A stretch of 64,000 nucleotides of DNA from Glandiceps talaboti (taxonomy: Eukaryota > Hemichordata > Enteropneusta > Spengelidae), in NCBI RefSeq assembly GCF_964340395.1, contig NC_135563.1, positions 16,084,651 through 16,148,650 of the forward strand, written 5' to 3'. The notes beneath the pieces are model-generated. The model was not told the origin of the DNA, did no database searches, and worked only from the letters and a program-made list of their open reading frames with translations. A program made the position numbers and the translations under genes. Below, one piece after another: positions 5,539 through 60,085 of the stretch (positions are counted from its first letter, which is position 1; each line of letters begins with the position of its first letter).

Positions 5539-8500
5539 TCCAAGGTGCATTCTACATTAAAAGAACACCAGTTGTAGTTTCTAGTGTATATCAAAGTTAT
5601 GACAATGAACACGTTTTGAAAATACAAATATGAATTTTAATTTCTTCTCTATATGGAACTACAAAATACGCAGTAACGCAAAACATTGACACAAAAATAT
5701 ACAACTGTATGGTATGTTGAGTTGAATATTCTCCAAAACATACAATTGGCAGTGTGTTGAAATAACTGGAGTAAAGTTTGCCAGGGAGTGTTTAAATAAA
5801 TAGAAAATTATTATTAAATTAAATCACTCGCATCTACTTTCAGTACGGCAGTTAAAACATCTCCCAACATTTTCATAATCTGAACAGTTAAGTTCACATT
5901 TCCCCTCATCACTAGCTGTAAGGCTTAATTTATATCAATCAACAAGGTGTAGAATGTATGCAAAATTAGACAGGTGAACTTTGAGCCAATGAAAAAAGGC
6001 TGTATATACCAGTAATTTGTATGGTATGAACTTATTGATAGGTCCACCATACCATCCAATCACTGTATGGCTTACATCAAACTGTTGGTCTGACTGCACC
6101 AGGAACAAAGCCTGCACAGGATTGGTTAATATTAACCTAAAAAGTGTACAAATTTCTGTGGACTGTTATTTCTTTGTTGGAATTACTGATTAACAATGCA
6201 ATATTTGTACAATTGTAAATTTTGATAACAATTGTATAAAATGTTTGTTTTCTTGTTTCTGAGGAGCCAACACACTTTGTTCGAATTCATTAAAAAAAGC
6301 ACTACTTGTACAATATAAACATACAAATATCATCTCTTACTTGTGTTTTTAAGGAAAATGGCATTAAAAGTACATGACAAATAACCTTTCCTGTAAAGTG
6401 TACAATTGAGTTCATTCAATCATTCTACAAAATACAATAAGCAATTAAAATGAGAGAATGTAGTATAACTCTATTTATAATGTAGACTTACTGACTTTGA
6501 ATCTGTCCTGTGTTCAATATTGCAAGAAACACAATATCATATATATGTGTAAGAATTCATATATATAACATTTCAGTGAAAGTAATACTTGCATAATAGG
6601 CCCCCCAAAAAAGAAAAGAATTGTTTGTGGTCAGTGCATGCATCACTTAAATACTCTCGTGTCGGTCTTTTTTTTGTGTGTGTGTTTGTCCAGCCCATGC
6701 AGTCTGCAAATCCGAGGGGAAACACAAAAATAACCCTCCCTACTTCAGTGAAGACAACTGCAGAGCCAATCATGAACAAGCACACACACTTGCTCAAAAG
6801 TACTAAATAAATAGAATGGTAACTGCCATAAATACATGTAGGAGATCGAGTGACAGGTTTGTTCAGAATAAAAAAAAAACTATATTGTGTCGTCGCACCA
6901 CTTTAGACAAAATGTCCTGACCAGAAACAATTCTCTGTTTTTTGGCCATAACTGTCATAAATTTAGAATATCAGTGGCACTTGGTAAGAAATCATTAAAA
7001 GAGACTGATAGAAATTATTGACAATATCGTAGTAGTAAAGAACTTGTGTATTTCATCTGAAATCAAAACATGGTTTGAGAAATGAACTAGCATTGAAAGT
7101 GTCATATAGATCATACATAATATTTGCATAATTAAAGAATTAGTAAGGTCACTCCAGTGGTTTAGAAACGCAATATTGTGTGTGTGTTGTAAACTGCCCT
7201 TTTTCAAGTTTTTCTACAAAAAACATTGCTTTTTTCCCCTTAGATGGCCTTCATACTGGTAGTGAAAGTAGACTATACCCTAAAGCATAAATCAATAGAG
7301 GTGACGAAATTTAATCTTTTATAATTTCATTTAAGGTCTTTCCAAGTAAAGAAAATGAACTTCCATGAAATATTGAACACCGGAGGAAAAAAATAACAAT
7401 GTTTAGCATTCAAAAAGGAGGCTGCATAATGCTATATGGCTATGTAGACATGAATATTTCTGTAAAACAGTTTTTACCTTGGACATTAACTAAAGGGTTT
7501 TGCTTGGACGAATTTAAAGAAAACCACAGCTTTACATTGCTTTCTGTTTTGAAAAAACATACATCCTTCTTTAATTCTTATTTCTGATTTAAAATCATCC
7601 TAAAAGATACCTCATTATAAAAGTTTATAGTCTATGCTAGTTTGGTCAGTTAGTTCACCTGTTTGCATGTCACAAGTTCTCTCCAATTCTTAATGCCTTT
7701 GTTATCTTTTTCAGACACAAGTGCCTATGCCACTTTACATTAATGATTCTGAAGCGATTGAATGCCTTGAAGTTTATACCTTGAATGCCTTTGTAATCTA
7801 TCTCAGACACTATCACTTGACAACAGACATTCAAATGCCTTGAGGTATATACTTTGAATGCCTTATCATCTTGCTGAGACAAAACCACTAGCTTGACCAG
7901 ATACAAATGTAATTAAATAACTTGAGATTCATACTTTGAATGATGACATTCAAATGCCTTGAGATTCACACTTTGAATGCCTTGAATGACAACATACATT
8001 CAAATGCCTTGAGGTTTATACTTTGAATGCCTTATCTTTCTGAGACACAGCCACTTGACCAGATACATTTAAATACAACTGAATGCCTTTGGCATCTTTC
8101 TGAGACACAACCACTTGACCATAGATACATTCTAATGCAATTGAATGCCTCAGGTTCATAAGAGACCCCTTTTTTGGCTAGTTTGTGTACAAAATCCACT
8201 TACACATGTACATACTAAAACTTATTCAAGTCTAAATCAGATTGTAATACAGGTGGATAAGCATCAAATAGCATAAAGTTACAGACTGTGTGGCCCTTCA
8301 GTAAACTGTGGTTGCTGGCATGGTTGTTGTACAAGACTGAGCATTATTATTTCACTTGGCATTAATCACTAAAGTATCCATATACCAAGAACTTGATTTA
8401 CATGCAAACAAGTTGGCTAAGTCACAAGTCATCAACATAAGGGTTTTACTGTAAAAAGATCAACTCCATTTGGTTCTATTTATTTTATCATTTAAATATT

Positions 8501-20156: not shown

Positions 20157-23100
20157 ATGTCAGAAGTTACATCAGAGGGAAGTACATCAGAGGGAAAATC
20201 AGCAAATAAACTCCGCCAACAACATTCGTCATCACCAGCACTATTGATTACTAATAGAAGACGAGAGATTCCTCTACAGAGGGGTACTAGTAGCAGTGTT
20301 AATGAAACCAGTATTCAAGAAAACTGTGGGGCTGAGACAGCACCTAAACATGGGTCATACCCAGAGAGAAGAGTAACACAACCCACACAAGTACAAGGTA
20401 CATATAATGTTCTCTTACACTTTGACAATTACAATCCAGTAGAAAAATGCAAAACAATAGGCATGTCATTTAGTTACCATAGTAATTGCCTTTTTGTCTT
20501 AAACTTCCACCAAAGAATTGTGTCTTTAGATTTACAAAATCTATGTATGTCTTTTACTGAGGTTGATTCTGTCTCACATCCAAACATCAGATCTCAAGAA
20601 TAGTGCAAGCACTAACCGATAAAAAGGGCAGATGACAACTGCAAACACTAGTGCATTGTTTTGTCTCGACCATTTATTGGTTGAAATATTTATTATACAA
20701 ACATTTTCAACCATTAAAATTCTATTTATAATGCTATGTAATGTTAAATAAAGTTAAAGGGAGCAAAGGCTGAATTTTGTCTTGCAGCTTTAGTTTTAGT
20801 CATGAAGAGTCAAATTCCCCATTCTCCATCACACAACTTCTCTAAATATAAGAGATGTTATTAAGTTATTCAAATTATCAATGACCCAACCTCTGTACAC
20901 TGGGATAGGGATTTTGAGTATAGTGCCCACTTTACCTATGCTGATGTCCCCAATGTCCCTATCGATCAGTCTGTCTGCTATTTCTGTGTATTTTGTTTCT
21001 ACCTTATCAGCCTATAAGGTGCAAACAATAGATACATTGGATGTTTTCTGTCGTGTTTGTGCTCATTTATTGCAGAAACAATACTGATGCAAATGCTCTT
21101 GGTGATATTTTATTTAAAAATGTCAATTGAAGACTACAGTAATGTGTATAATCTATATATTTAGTATAAGAACTGATTTGTAGTATATTGTGGAGGTTGC
21201 ATTTTCTGAGTGTTGGTTGATACTGACCAGTGCTGGCCAGCATGGGGAGAACCACGTATATGTGGCAATTCATCTGCTTACTTCTATGTCCCATTCCTTA
21301 GACATTATGTCTATAATGGTATTTTGTTCTCTTTCAGAAACTAATTGTGACCATTGTGGACAAACTTTAACAATACACCAGTACTACAAAGGGTCAACCA
21401 TTTTCCAAGGCACAGTAACAGGTGCACAGGTTGGTGATTATAACAAGCTTTGTGTAGAGGAAAAAATGTCTTCACAGACTAAAGAGACAGAAGAAGATCA
21501 TAGTGAAGACGATGATGGTGGTGGTGGTGGTGGTGACCCGAAAGAAAAAGAAGAAGAAAATCAAGGTTTGCTTTATCTTTTATGAGATATTCTAATTGTC
21601 ATATTATTGCTTTCTCTCTCAGATTCTCATTTAAATAAAAGGATTCTGTGTTTATGTTTGCGAAAAATCTTCAAATTATATGTGTAAAGATTTTAATTTA
21701 AGTTTGAATAAAATTTTGATTATATTTTTTGTAATTCAGGTGAATTAATAGATCCAGTTGAACAGCAGCAAATATCTTCACCAGTTACATGCCCACGTTG
21801 TAAACAAGAATTCCACCATGAAGTTAAGGATGATAAAGATTGTACAGCAAATGACAAGGGTGTTACACCAGTATTTGAAGGTAATATTACTCGGATAAAT
21901 ATGCTAAAATTGGTCAAATATGTCCTAAAGATTCTGAATATTTTGTTAAAAGTGTATCCTGTCATGTAGAACCCAAGGATAATTCATTTAAACTTGCCAA
22001 ATCAGTGGTCACATTGGACATCAGGAAGTATTTCTTCACTCGGCGGACTGTATCTCACTGGAATGACTTACTGGAATATGTCATTCAAACCAAGACTGTG
22101 TGTGACTTTAAAATTAGCCTTGACCAGCAAATGAACAGTAAAAGGGATTACCTAAGCCTTTTAGCCTGTGTTGACATGGAACATTCATGGCAATCAGTTG
22201 ATAAAATTTTAGATTCACTTTTTCACAAAATAGTCTGAATCATTGGGATATATTTTGCAGATAAATTCTGTTAAGATAATCAATTTTCTTTCTGTAACAC
22301 TCTATTACACTCATTTCTGGTATTACCCTCATCAGTTTTATGAAGGTACAGACAAATTTATAGTCTTGGCAGAAATCTTATTATAAGTGGTCATCTTCTA
22401 TGCTGTACCTGTCAATTTAGTAACTATAAGAAAAATTGCTGGGCTGATGAGATATGGGCTTAATTCTGTTACAACCTACGTTATGAACTATTGTTGAATG
22501 TTTTGTGAATTTTGAAGTGAACACAACAGAAGGTGACTATATCCTGTGATCAACAACATACATACAACTTTTACTGGTCACTGTCAATAAAAAAATAGAT
22601 GAATATGATATACGTGGGCTATGTCAAAAGCACTGTTTGTCCATGTTTAATTGTATAATACTATTGATTTGTGTTTAGTTTTTAGAAAATCCTCATCAAT
22701 CACTTATGTATTTACAGAATCTCTGGTTAAATGTGGCATACCTGAATCTCGTAGTGCATGTGATATGCTCAGTTTGAAAGAGCCATTACAGACAAATATC
22801 ACTGAATCTATACAGTGGAGTACAACTTTAAGGTCATTATCCAAGGAAGAGGACCATGTACTTAATGTGCCTAGGTCAGTTAGCAAGTGTAGAGACCATC
22901 TTAAAGATGTCTACAGTATTCGGTTTAAGGAATACACTGCAGTCACAACTCTACATCAACACCATGAATTAGGTATGAATGTTTACATTCCATTAAAATT
23001 TGAAGATATGAATGAGGGTACCATCAAACAAGTACAGATAATTGAGAGTGAGTTAGATTTAAGTTCTGATAAAAGAATTGTGATATATGGAGGCTCTGGT

Positions 23101-25740
23101 CAAGGCAAAACAACATTTTGTCAGAAATTAGTTTATGACTGGAGTAGAGCATCCAACAGGTACAGTGTCAGTCACTTCAAAGGTGATATCTCAAGTGGTT
23201 TAAGTGAGTTTTATTTGGTGTTTTACTTAGAAGGTAGGCAATTGGAAAGCAAACTTAGTGTAATGGATGCCGTCTTTGATCAGTTGCTTTCTCGGGCAGC
23301 TAGCATAGGTATAAACAGAGAGGAAGTTGAGAAATGGATCCAAGATAACCAGGAGAAAGTTTGTTTTATAGTTGATGCCCTTGATGAAGTGCCCCTCCAA
23401 CATGATGCAAACCATTCACTTAATAGGTTCATCAAGTTGGAGTATCTTGTTAAAACACATGCCATATTCACTGCACAAAATCAGCCAGTTTACAAGTGTG
23501 ACAGATTATACAACATGTGTGAATTTAGTCATGAGGAAGTGAGTGCTTATATTCATAAATACTTCAGCAGTAAGCATGATGAGTCTAAGGCTGCAAGCTT
23601 AGAAGCAAAACTACGGTCAAATAGTAACCTTCGTGACTTGATGTCAATTCCCTTGTATTGTCTTCTGATGTGTATTCTTTGGAAGGACGACGAGGCCAAG
23701 TCACAGCCTGCCACAGAGACAGCACTGTTTAAAGAAATCTTCAACCTAACATGTGAACAGTATTGTAAAAACAAGAAGATTTCTAAATTAGACCCAAACT
23801 TTAGAGAGATTCTTCTCCTCAATTTCTCCCTGGCATGGAATGGTACAAAAGCTGGAAAGTTGACTTTCACAGAGAAAGAAATATTAGAAGCCATTGAGGA
23901 GAGAAAGTGTGCCATGAGTGTAGGTGATGTTGTCAGTATTGGCTTTCTTGTCAAAGTTGTTTGGAAGACAAATGAAGGTCTGGTGTATTCATTCCCACAT
24001 GGTATGTTTCAACAGCTTTTAGCTGCAATGTATGTGAAAGAAGTTAATGATAGAGAAACATATGATCAGTGTTGGTATTGTGGAAAAACCGAAGAGTGTA
24101 GACAAAAATATGAAATGGTTTGTGTGTTTCTAGCTGGTTTGTTGGGAAACAAAGCTGATCCATTCTTTACAGCATTTGGTAGAAAGTTTAATAAGCTAAA
24201 GAATAGTAATGAGGCATGTGTTGCTTGTATTGAGCGCTGTGTTCTCTTGGTTTGCCGATGTCTGATACAAAACGAAAGTCCACACAAATATGTACATGCT
24301 ATTGTTGGTGTGCTAGCAGAGCATAAGGAATTAAGTGTGAAATTTTTCCAGGAAGATCTTGTTGATGACACGTTAATTGCTTTGTCATATATGCTGGAAA
24401 CCAAACGTTGTGAAAAGGAAGAAGGTTGTGAAGGAATCCTAGAGTCTCTTGTCCTTGTCAATCTCAAAAGAGCTGGAAAAGTGGCAATGGAAAGATTTAG
24501 TGGGGCTCTACAGAAATGTTCATGGCTTCTTGAACTGTCTTTGTGTGTGTCATACTTGGATGTTGAAATTTGTCGTCTGCTGCACCATGCTATAGCAAAG
24601 AATAGAAGTCTCCAAAAAGTCAGCATTCATGCGTACATTGATGATATGCAGGAAGGTGCCCCATTAACTATTCCACAGATTCTTCAAAATCCAGTCCTTA
24701 AAGAGGTTAAGTTGTTTGCAGTATTTGTGAGGAAATGTCCTCCCAGTTGTCGATTTGTGAAAGAAGATCGAGCTTGTGATTGCCCAAATTTGCAGCAAGT
24801 CAGTCAATTTGTTAAAGAATTTGTAAAGGCTTTGAAGTCAAATAAGTCTTTGGAGTCTTTGTGGTTAACTGATTGTTTCTTTAACAATTGTCCAAACTCA
24901 ACAGACCTTATGCTAGCCCTCTTGAATCATGAAACTTTGGATTCTTTGATTGTCTCAGGAGAATTCAATGGGTCAGGTCAAATCAGTGCCAATGGGCTTG
25001 ACACTCTCACAAGAATTATCAGGGGGCGAAATCTGGCCAAATTTGGTCTGATGCTGACAACACTCTCTCCTGAAGTTGGCAGCCAAATGAAGCCTGTTGA
25101 TTATACGAAACAGTTGGTCAATGCTTTGTCTGATAATTTTTCTCTGAGAACTGTCAAGTTGATGTTTACTTATTTACCACTTGCCTGCCAGCTACAGATT
25201 GCCAAGTATATCAAAGAGGCACCTTTGCTATGCACAATTGAGTTATGTTGGAAGATGTTCTACCCTAAGTTTCTACTTGACTTAGGTGATGCTTTAAATG
25301 CATTTCCAAATATTGAGAAATTAGATTTAGAGGGGAAATTCATTCCTGGTGGGACCCACACTGTTAACTTCTTGAAGGGAATACAAAAGAACACACAGAT
25401 TAAATCAGTTACCCTGTTCGGGAAACCATTTGAAGCTGAGTTCATTTCTGAACTGATAGACGAAATGAGTTCATGGAAGGAGAGATACCCTTGTCTTCAG
25501 TTGCAGTTGGAAGGAGAAATAATGAAATGTACACCAGTAGGTCAACCTTGTAGTGAGTCAGAGGTTGAGGAAAACTTGAGGGTTGCACAACATGCCTTTG
25601 AGAATCTCCAAAGTGTTGTGTGTTCTTGCAAAGCTGTAAAACTTGATGTACAATGTACCTATGAATGTCCATCATATCTTGAAATGAATGCTGAATGTTC
25701 TTGGAAAAATTGTGAAGAGAGTGTCAGTGCAGTAACCTAA
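20157..25740 (+). CDS. NACHT-LRR (NLR-type) protein with N-terminal CxxC modules and a RHIM-like motif (4 exons)
   Basis: Exons 20157-20397, 21338-21565, 21740-21880 and 22718-25740 join in phase 1 throughout and give 1210 residues. ATG 20157 is the first after an in-frame TGA. Exon 1 (1-80) is Ser/Thr-rich and disordered. Exon 2 (81-157) carries CDHC (C84, C87), then a RHIM-like core at 110-118 (A-Q-V-G-D-Y-N-K-L; consensus I/V-Q-V-G-x-x-N-x-M/L) and an acidic/Gly-rich linker. Exon 3 carries CPRC (C174, C177). Exon 4 encodes a NACHT domain with Walker A GGSGQGKT (328-335) and Walker B DALDE (423-427), then helical and degenerate leucine-rich repeats and a Cys-rich tail. NACHT-LRR proteins are ATP-driven oligomerising sensors; RHIMs seed amyloid signalling in necroptosis and Imd/TLR pathways. 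The NLR call is firm. The RHIM call rests on motif similarity and the fusion on matching phases and splice sites. Confidence 0.85.
21957..22238 (+). mobile_element. Non-LTR retrotransposon fragment (RT C-terminal tail)
   Basis: In the last NLR intron a frame reads LDIRKYFFTRRTVSHWNDL and ends with V..AKTVCDFK-like and LDQQ motifs. This is the conserved C-terminal tail after the reverse transcriptase of CR1/Jockey-type LINEs (R.YFF.QR.V..WN.LP...). Only about 90 codons remain and the rest of the element is absent. Confidence 0.7.
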
Positions 25741-25741
25741 T

Positions 25742-25746
25742 TTGTT

Positions 25747-25777
<31 letters not shown>

Positions 25778-25872
25778 TTGTTGTTGGCATCATCATACTC
25801 ATTGTTGCCTCTATCGTCAACATCATCATCATCATCATCATCATCATCACCACCACCACCATCATCATCATA
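25742..25872. repeat. (TTG)n and (ATC)n trinucleotide tracts in the NLR 3' UTR
   Basis: Directly after the NLR stop codon lies a GTT/TTG run (25742-25785), then ATC/ACC units (about 25821-25872). A small frame there encodes poly-Leu and poly-Ser only because of the repeats. Confidence 0.85.
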
Positions 25873-26329
25873 TTATACGTATGTTGTGGGTCAAAGACCT
25901 TTTCATAGTTATGAATGCATATGAGAGTGACCGGTAAAACACCAAATAAAACAGAACAATACCTAGTAAGTTATGAACTTGAAGGCATTTGAGTTAGTGG
26001 TTTGTCTGCTAGAGTACCAAACTACACCAAAACAAATTTAAAATGACAGGAAAAATAAAACACTAATTATAAGGCAGTATTTGATGAATACCATAAACAT
26101 ATCTTGGAACTTATCCAAAACTTCAAATCATATCTGAACTATTCCAAATCTTTGTTCACGTAATCTTTCAGTATTGTAGTTGATATCTTTTGTAACATTT
26201 CGGACCTGACTGCTTGATCTATTTAACTTTTTATGTCTTGTAATTAGCATACCAAAATGTATTATTATCAATCTACACTGTACCTGAAAAAATGCATAAT
26301 CTCACTTCATTCAAATAAAAATGACTATG

Positions 26330-29884: not shown

Positions 29885-30964
29885 TTAAAGTGGTTCAATT
29901 GGTTTGACCCATTTCGGATCCCTTGCCCCTATATGTTCTGGTCTCTGTTGTCCTGGCGCCGCGGGATATAGTGGCTCTATCAGCTTGTTAGCCAGGCTGT
30001 TATACACGATGAAGAAGTTGAAACGATTCCATGGCGTAAGATTGCTATGGTTAGCATGTAAAAGATTGCTATCAAATAAAATGACATCACCAACATCACC
30101 TGTGCAATATTCAATACCAAACTTATCAGCCATCTCCAGGAGTATGTCAATGTCTGGAGCCCCATATTCAAGGTCACGGTATTTTGTATTTTTGGTCAGG
30201 TGATCTGAGGCGGTCTCCTTCTTCGTAGGAAAGAACCACATATGAGTTTCAGGGATGACCATCAAAGATCCCATTTCTCGTTTGTTGGGCGATAACATGA
30301 CGACACCTGTCAATGAACGTATCCTGGGCATTCCATCTTCTGCATGGTAAAAGTCAAAATCATTGTGAAAGTTATGTCCTGTACCCACAAGCGCCGGGTG
30401 GAAGTTGACACGAGATTGGTGGATATATACATCGTCAGCTAGAATCTGCTTGACTGGTAATATCAGTTTCTTGCTACTACTCAGTTTACGTAGGGCATCA
30501 TAATACAGATGAAGTCCATACATGCTACGTATTTTTCTGGTGTTAGGCTCGGTAGAAAAGATGTTATCACGAGTTACAATTGGGTCGTCACCTTCTCTAA
30601 TATTACTCTCTATCTTTTGCTTTGTATTAGTGACCTCTTCAACCACTGGTGCCATCTCTTCCTTCGTGAAGACATTCTTCAGCACAAGATAACCCCTTTT
30701 CTCGTATTCACTTAGTTGATCGCCTGTCAATGGTCCTTGTGGTGTCTTTCCATCTTGATACTTCCACACAACGGGGTCAACACGGGGAACCACTTTGGCC
30801 ACCGTTTCACATCGAGTTTTGTATGGATCTTCCCCAACAGCAATCCGTGATGAAAAAGAAGATGCGGTCCTTTGTATCAAATGCTTTAAGCCGTGGTCTT
30901 CTCTATTGAAACGGTGCACGATTTTTGAAGTCAAACGAGCACAACGCAAGCACATATATGCCAT
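29885..30964 (-). CDS. PhyH-superfamily Fe(II)/2-oxoglutarate dioxygenase, ectoine hydroxylase (EctD)-like, intronless
   Basis: Single open frame of 359 residues with no introns. Residues 1-45 are basic, Ser/Arg-rich and poor in acids, like a mitochondrial presequence. From 63 the protein follows bacterial EctD: DPVVW, then GPLT..QL..YEKRGYLVL, then the signature block HNFHNDFDFYHAEDGMPR (197-214), close to the EctD consensus FxWHSDFxTWHxEDGMP. Fe ligands are H200, D202 and distal H303; the 2-oxoglutarate arginine would be R314, the usual 11 residues later. The block after H303 (N.TPW.R.N.F.VYNS) also matches EctD. EctD hydroxylates the osmolyte ectoine; the animal substrate is unknown and proline or another imino acid is equally possible. 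No ectoine synthesis gene is in the window. Confidence 0.85.
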   Translation of the reverse strand: MAYMCLRCARLTSKIVHRFNREDHGLKHLIQRTASSFSSRIAVGEDPYKTRCETVAKVVPRVDPVVWKYQDGKTPQGPLTGDQLSEYEKRGYLVLKNVFTKEEMAPVVEEVTNTKQKIESNIREGDDPIVTRDNIFSTEPNTRKIRSMYGLHLYYDALRKLSSSKKLILPVKQILADDVYIHQSRVNFHPALVGTGHNFHNDFDFYHAEDGMPRIRSLTGVVMLSPNKREMGSLMVIPETHMWFFPTKKETASDHLTKNTKYRDLEYGAPDIDILLEMADKFGIEYCTGDVGDVILFDSNLLHANHSNLTPWNRFNFFIVYNSLANKLIEPLYPAAPGQQRPEHIGARDPKWVKPIEPL

Positions 30965-31654
30965 TTTACTGGAACTTTCTGCAAAGTGTACTACGCCCTA
31001 GAAGTTCTTACTTGTCTTTGCTTTACACCGTCTCAGACAATAAACACGTCAAGTACAGGTTGTCAAGGGTAACGTTGGGGCCGGTCATTTTATAGGCGCC
31101 GGGGGGGGGGGTGACGTTTAACTTCTGTTTGTTAAAAAACATCAGGCCACCACAGCAGTTTCAAGGCCAATGAGACCCCAGTAAAGACTACATGTCCTAA
31201 AAACCCACACTCATACACATTGTTTGACATATATATGATGTCAAAGTATAGTCTGGTTAAAATCCTATATCAGTATTTGAATATTACTGTTGGTACCATT
31301 TTTTCTGTGTTCATTGAATGTATAGTGACACATAAGCTTAGATCGTTTCTAAAGGTATATTGTCAGCCAACATAAATACATGTATTACCCATTAAACATA
31401 ACTGACATGACCATGTGCTTTTAAAAAGAAAGAGGGTTCACAAAAACTACGAAAATATTGGCAGGAAGTAATATCTTCTGATATCGCTTACCTGTGATGC
31501 ATATCCATGTAATTTACATTGTATGATATTAATTTTGGCGGTAAAAATATCATAAATTAATGTGCATAAGCAAATACGTTCTGTGCATATATAAAGATAT
31601 ATTCACTAAAATTTGGTCAGCTACTTATGAAAAAAGACATTGTATCTGTTAATT

Positions 31655-36995: not shown

Positions 36996-60085
<23,090 letters not shown>

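Follow-up and report, generated by a model that had tools for sequence, protein, structure and literature searches.

Divergent RHIM-like cores are known in invertebrate immunity from the cryptic RHIMs of the insect Imd pathway, whose carriers are PGRP and adaptor proteins and are not known to be NLRs. Among NLRs themselves, the fungal PP-motif proteins (for example PNT1/HELLP) and the bacterial BASS3 proteins carry a short GxQxG-bearing motif N-terminal to the oligomerisation domain, and amyloid-signalling NLRs usually pair with an effector motif in a neighbouring gene. According to the available text of the sources, GxQxG is common to PP and RHIM (PMC5485727), the PP motif reads N-x-G-x-Q-x-G-x-N, and in 2022 amyloid NLRs were called specific to fungi and bacteria (PMC9815663). 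Five Drosophila proteins are mentioned in the context of RHIM-like cores in the accessible part of PMC7885112. Our search, which covered the open-licence literature, found no paper joining RHIM with NLR or NACHT.

The locus described here lies in a 64-kb stretch of DNA, analysed as a whole and referred to as the window. Its candidate amyloid motif is, like theirs, short and GxQxG-bearing and is predicted to lie N-terminal to the oligomerisation domain; it differs from the PP and BASS3 systems in belonging to an animal NACHT protein and in having the RIPK1-like spacing Q-x-G-x-x-N. No second strict core was found within the 64-kb window, and a RIPK1-like locus with a RHIM lies unlinked, on C8 (L011, described below).

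As predicted from the DNA letters, the window contains an NLR gene of four coding exons, with all introns GT-AG and in phase 1 and a joined frame that is open over 1210 residues (Table 1). The first-pass annotation had placed a RHIM-like core at residues 110-118 in exon 2, followed by a NACHT-LRR body. The core was found exactly there, and the gene model joins exon 2 in frame and in phase 1 toward the downstream NACHT exon, with a good acceptor (TTCTCTTTCAG/AAA) and a weak GT donor (AAG/GTTTGC). The NACHT domain was confirmed by Pfam, whereas no LRR family was matched in the 1210-residue protein at E ≤ 10 and the repeats are suggested by spacing only; a spacing pattern chosen by eye matched the exon-4 protein nine times, with the first match (residue 303) N-terminal to NACHT. 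The N-terminus encoded by exon 1 is Ser/Thr-rich and probably disordered, and exon 1 of a paralog on C11 likewise ends in phase 1 before GTACAT.

Table 1. Coordinates of the features of the window gene and of short exons at two other NLR loci (window positions unless a contig is given)
Feature	Position	Strand	Details and evidence
Exon 1, coding part	20157..20397	plus	ATG at 20157; residues 1-80; ends in phase 1, donor AAG/GTACAT
Exon 2	21338..21565	plus	CxxC, RHIM-like segment and acidic/Gly linker; phase 1-1
Lone CxxC knuckle CDHC, N-terminal to motif	21346..21357	plus	Sequence; Zn_ribbon_3 E 0.93, far under cut-off
RHIM-like segment STIFQGTVTGAQVGDYNKLCVEE, residues 100-122	21394..21462	plus	Profile, shuffle and alignment tests
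Core AQVGDYNKL, residues 110-118	21424..21450	plus	Sequence; genome-wide pattern count
Acidic/Gly linker within exon 2	21480..21565	plus	Sequence
Exon 3	21740..21880	plus	Phase 1-1; second lone CxxC, CPRC, at 21790-21801
Exon 4, NACHT and C-terminal half, including stop codon	22718..25740	plus	Gene model, Pfam
NACHT domain, residues 323-488	23074..23571	plus	Pfam E 6.6e-14
C-terminal region with degenerate LRR-like spacing, limits approximate	24440..25420	plus	Pattern match only
Paralog motif exon GSPGNITIHGGCVMIGDRGCMQITPSSMTPPPAY	L042 (C11:8912500-8919500), reverse-strand positions 5869-5970	minus	Acceptor 4.5, donor 3.2; phase 1-1
First exon of L014, MSKDGPGHNVALRGDNNTVIITGSLAEISIGES, 33 residues, Gly/beta-rich	L014 (C16:19334120-19343978), reverse-strand positions 6466-6565	minus	Phase 1; clean splice sites

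The coding signal of exon 2 as a whole exceeded that of 1000 of 1000 open non-coding stretches, a high score probably driven by the acidic/Gly repeats. For the 44-codon motif part the signal was unremarkable, with 20% of 2000 nulls as high. A simple exon finder, which used splice weights with a donor threshold of 3.0, considered phase-1 exons only and was blind to the motif sequence, proposed zero exons in the window region; the window exons were missed because their donors score 1.4, -0.6 and 2.1. A genome search with residues 1-53 of the exon 2 product gave no second match at E 10 (two candidates scored).

Several further features were noted in the window. Immediately 3' of the NLR stop codon, at 25741-25880, there are GTT/GCT, ATC and ACC trinucleotide repeats. 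About 4 kb past the NLR gene a 370-residue ORF lies on the minus strand (29885-30997), which we take to resemble a phytanoyl-CoA dioxygenase-type protein. Several minus-strand ORFs at 41328-54055 bear C-E/N-C-x-x-C motifs and presumably resemble exons of a FAM193-type gene.

The RHIM-like segment (STIFQGTVTGAQVGDYNKLCVEE) was compared with its human RIPK1 counterpart (TIYNSTGIQIGAYNYMEI). It follows the RIPK1/RIPK3 RHIM pattern T-I-[YF]-[NQ]...T-G-x-Q-[VI]-G-x-[YN]-N-x-[LM], including the hydrophobic, Q, G and N positions, and has in common with human RIPK1 the elements T-I-[YF]-[NQ], T-G, Q-[VI]-G, Y-N and [LM], with [VI] as the last. The RIPK1-type likeness extends past the core, with T-I-F-Q...T-G-A-Q-V-G-D-Y-N-x-L in the window against T-I-Y-N...T-G-I-Q-I-G-A-Y-N-x-M. 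It departs from the RIPK1/RIPK3 RHIM in opening the tetrad with Ala where these have I/V, in a short insertion ahead of T-G, in a K replacing the Y that follows the core Asn, and in being part of an NLR and not of a kinase or an adaptor.

The core tetrad has the consensus (V/I)-Q-(V/I/L/C)-G in the text available for PMC9444067. The window has A-Q-V-G, and the Ala at the first position, which had been named as the main weakness of the motif from the start, indeed departs from the published V/I. The sequence after the tetrad, G-D-Y-N-K-L, conforms to G-x-x-N-x-[ML]. A search with the RHIM profile HMM, as had been proposed, went against the motif, with no match of Pfam RHIM (PF12721) to the window exon at E ≤ 10. 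Elsewhere in the genome the same profile matched four places at 17.0-20.8 bits, of which only L009 was above the cut-off of 20. This is a strict test, because the RIPK1-like L011 itself falls under the cut-off. By the strict definition, tetrad and Pfam, the window segment is outside RHIM. The portion of PMC9444067 consulted also describes that mutation of the tetrad to AAAA abolishes RHIM signalling and that in mouse RIPK3 one V-to-P substitution is enough to block necroptosis; Ala at position 1 may therefore give weak, selective or no assembly.

A RIPK RHIM profile was then applied, with human and mouse RIPK1, human RIPK3 and the animal's own RIPK1-like RHIM (L011) as members. Besides the training member L011, exon 2 was top of 10,306 ORFs (a set in which some overlapping loci are present twice), with 8.4 bits and E = 1.0, and it scored above L009, L010 and L012, the places picked by Pfam. 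With L011 left out of the profile, no shuffle of exon 2 among 10,000 matched its score; with L011 included, one of 10,000 did. In local alignment of the window segment, the shuffles that scored as well numbered 6 of 2000 against the own RIPK1-like RHIM exon, 6 of 2000 against human RIPK1 and 12 of 2000 against human RIPK3. A PDB search with the segment gave no match at E 10. On these figures, for which motif and place were picked after reading the sequence, the wider similarity to RIPK1/RIPK3 RHIMs is above chance, with a marginal E-value and strong shuffle support; the likeness would be judged above chance were the place fixed beforehand. The RHIM resemblance noted in the first-pass annotation held for Q-V-G-x-x-N and for the wider likeness above shuffles, and failed at the Ala of the tetrad and in Pfam.

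We tentatively favour, at a confidence just short of even, the reading that the window segment is a divergent RHIM-like adaptor by which the NLR would seed RIPK1-type assemblies. The alternative that survives best is coincidence, that is, a nine-residue near-match without function in the fast-evolving, disordered N-terminus of an NLR, met while scanning 64 kb; this is a serious possibility, although we would not call it probable. The Ala, the unmatched Pfam RHIM and a profile E-value of only 1.0 all point to it, and so do the genome-wide counts. The pattern G-A-Q-[VIM]-G-x-x-N was present at 4 places in 590 Mb (6 in the reversed control) and G-[IVM]-Q-[IVM]-G-x-x-N at 30 (control, 23), 13 of these being copies of one identical 24-mer. 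Taken together as G-[AIVM]-Q-[IVM]-G-x-x-N, the genome had 34 and the control 29, and most genomic cores are therefore chance. The place of the window core argues against coincidence: it alone among the 34 has one of 79 listed NACHT places at a distance of 50 kb or less (the genome has at least 80, and one of the 80 was omitted from the proximity list), and the chance expectation of a core in 80 stretches of 612 nt, corresponding to the NLR N-termini, is 0.0012, or about 0.001. The extension of the similarity past the core likewise counts against it.

The paralog bears on coincidence in both directions. For the part from NACHT to the C-terminus, one close relative was found, at C11, with 46% over 882 residues (the next had 26% and 127 bits), in a ranking among the 51 of 74 candidates that were scored. 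Its motif exon is placed upstream of NACHT as in the window gene and in the same phase; it was first picked by eye, before the motif-blind exon finder, in which it came first of six candidates in the C11 region. When it was aligned with the RHIM exon of the RIPK1-like locus, only 4 of 5000 shuffles were as good, and the N-terminal part was included (GSPGNITIHG / GST-NITISG). Such a resemblance at the same place and phase is not expected of a chance match, whereas the lack of Q and N in the paralog exon (M for Q, G for N) is in keeping with one. No RHIM profile signal was seen in the paralog exon (1823 and 2064 of 10,000 shuffles as good), and no similarity to the window exon beyond shuffles (1611 of 5000 as good). 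Orthologues lacking the Q-G-N core had been put forward as a sign that would speak against the motif; the paralog exon comes near to this, although it belongs to a paralog and not to an orthologue.

Long upstream DNA was compared for 22 of the 80 NACHT loci, namely the 20 best-scoring, the paralog and the window. When each region was represented by its highest-scoring alignment with the RHIM exon of the RIPK1-like locus, the order was L022 (44), the paralog (42) and the window (40), with the rest at 35 or below and antisense maxima of up to 36. That the L022 stretch outscores the window here is a further point for coincidence. Against human RIPK1 the window ranked first with 38 and the next region had 34; the best stretch of the paralog (32) lies elsewhere than its motif exon. 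L022 was also the one strict-core match among the 20 other NLR upstream loci (L013-L032), and both this match and its top alignment were apparently due to chance. A much looser core pattern gave many matches in the NLR upstream loci, which were judged by eye to be chance.

The upstream exons of six other NACHT loci, which were hand-picked from the exon-finder list and so give no frequency for the genome's NLRs, corresponded to DED in five cases (one under the Pfam cut-off) and HEPN_DZIP3 in one. Animal death-fold NLRs, to which these loci with DED or HEPN exons are comparable, have the NACHT body in common with the window gene; unlike them, the window gene has no folded domain N-terminal to NACHT that is recognisable with Pfam. 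The 33-residue exon of L014 matched nothing in Pfam, had no second genome match at E 10 and did not clearly resemble RHIMs (in the alignments, 37 to 421 of 2000 shuffles were as good). A broader proposal is that some NLRs here swapped the death-fold exon for short amyloid-signalling exons (AQVGDYNKL in the window, NITIHGGCVMIGDRGCM on C11 and NVALRGDNNTVIITGSLAEISIG in L014), RHIM-derived or convergent, through which activated NLRs would directly seed RIPK1-type amyloids. In this general form the proposal is speculative and rather unlikely; if true, it would give the NLR-amyloid signalling of fungi and bacteria its first branch in animals.

Exons 2 and 3 could alternatively encode small zinc-binding knuckles (CDHC and CPRC) that form a folded adaptor together or in oligomers, with QVGDYN as a beta-turn. 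There is one lone CxxC in each of the two exons, and besides the Zn_ribbon_3 match of exon 2 (E 0.93) Pfam gave zinc-ribbon matches of E 0.021 and 0.06 for exon 3. However, all of these are under the cut-offs, each exon has a single CxxC, the two exons are alike only in C..C.Q (2623 of 5000 shuffles as good), and CxxC is absent from the reading frame of the paralog exon, which together make this explanation improbable. A third alternative, which is highly improbable, is that the window segment is an amyloid-signalling one without RHIM descent. In that case several NLRs of this animal would have replaced the death-fold exon by different short beta/Gly motifs, and each motif would act as a template for a partner of its own, in the manner of fungi. 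The short exons with Gly that precede NACHT in the window, the C11 paralog and L014 are indeed all three unlike one another, but the window and paralog exons are each closer to the own RIPK1-like RHIM exon than to each other, and the search for an effector bearing such a motif gave no second strict core in the window.

The search of the same genome for other RHIM proteins, which the first-pass annotation had suggested, was productive and led to the RIPK1-like locus on C8. Its RHIM exon (L011, GIKHGSTNITISGNPSGIQIGNQNYMVVQG) matched Pfam RHIM at E 0.005 with 16.8 bits, or 18.6 bits in the genome search, both under the cut-off of 20. The best PDB matches of this exon were RIPK1 RHIM structures (E 0.042), with profilins and RIPK3 also listed. 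On the same strand, 7.3 kb upstream, a kinase exon (C8:7566804-7567106) matched the human RIPK1 kinase domain at 35% (E 6.9e-9), ranking 39th of the 52 listed genome matches to that domain, which are 26-49% identical. Such identities are below what a vertebrate would be expected to show and suggest that the animal is an invertebrate. A Death-domain ORF (E 2.2e-15) was located further along the strand, so that kinase, RHIM and Death exons follow one another along a single strand over about 8.3 kb. In the available text of PMC12119088, RIPK1 has an N-terminal kinase and a C-terminal RHIM and Death domain in one protein, and RHIM-bearing RIPK1 homologues are reported in the zebra mussel, other spiralians and lancelets. 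The C8 locus, read as encoding a kinase-RHIM-Death protein, is a possible RHIM partner for the window NLR. A further kinase exon (C8:7553022-7553354, minus strand; 40% to human RIPK1, one in-frame stop) was observed about 6 kb past the L011 RHIM exon and is perhaps a neighbouring copy.

If the favoured reading of a divergent RHIM-like adaptor is correct, the window NLR would signal without a folded death domain, through a short segment that has a phase-1 exon to itself and is connected to NACHT by a linker that is acidic and probably disordered. Once the C-terminal half senses a ligand, NACHT would oligomerise, and the oligomer would bring the N-terminal segments together to form a cross-beta seed. 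This seed would recruit the RHIM of the same animal's RIPK1-like kinase-RHIM-Death protein, which in turn could pass the signal to NF-kB or cell death. Amyloid formation, partner and output are all what we infer for this NLR. The RHIM-sensor interpretation offered initially is partly supported: it is helped by the position N-terminal to NACHT, the RIPK1-like likeness and the partner locus, and is weakened by Pfam, the Ala and the paralog without Q or N. As part of the favoured reading, and by analogy, the window NLR may be an animal counterpart of the fungal and bacterial amyloid NLRs, a suggestion to which we give somewhat less than even weight. Should some NLRs signal through short RHIM-like exons that have so far been hidden, the link that is missing from NLRs to RHIM kinases would become testable, and the ancestry of the RHIM, PP and BASS3 motifs could be traced through NLRs.

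Other RHIM-like stretches were also recorded in the genome. L009, with HCKNVQFGHNNYI ahead of a stop and behind a tandem repeat, was set aside as probable chance despite passing the Pfam RHIM cut-off. L010 (GVQIGLN), with a spacing that is wrong for RHIM, was likewise set aside as probably a chance match. Further canonical cores were seen at C5:9497242 (GVQIGHRN), C4:7358498 (GVQMGKNN), C16:8886197 (GVQVGAHN) and C20:10257610 (GIQIGNCN), and these could be other RHIM proteins or chance. At L012 (C4:5637412-5637447, minus strand) a RHIM-like stretch, VYEINGKFVQIGDNNVIIALTSN, was present in an open frame, and none of 2000 shuffles was as good in comparison with the human RIPK3 RHIM.
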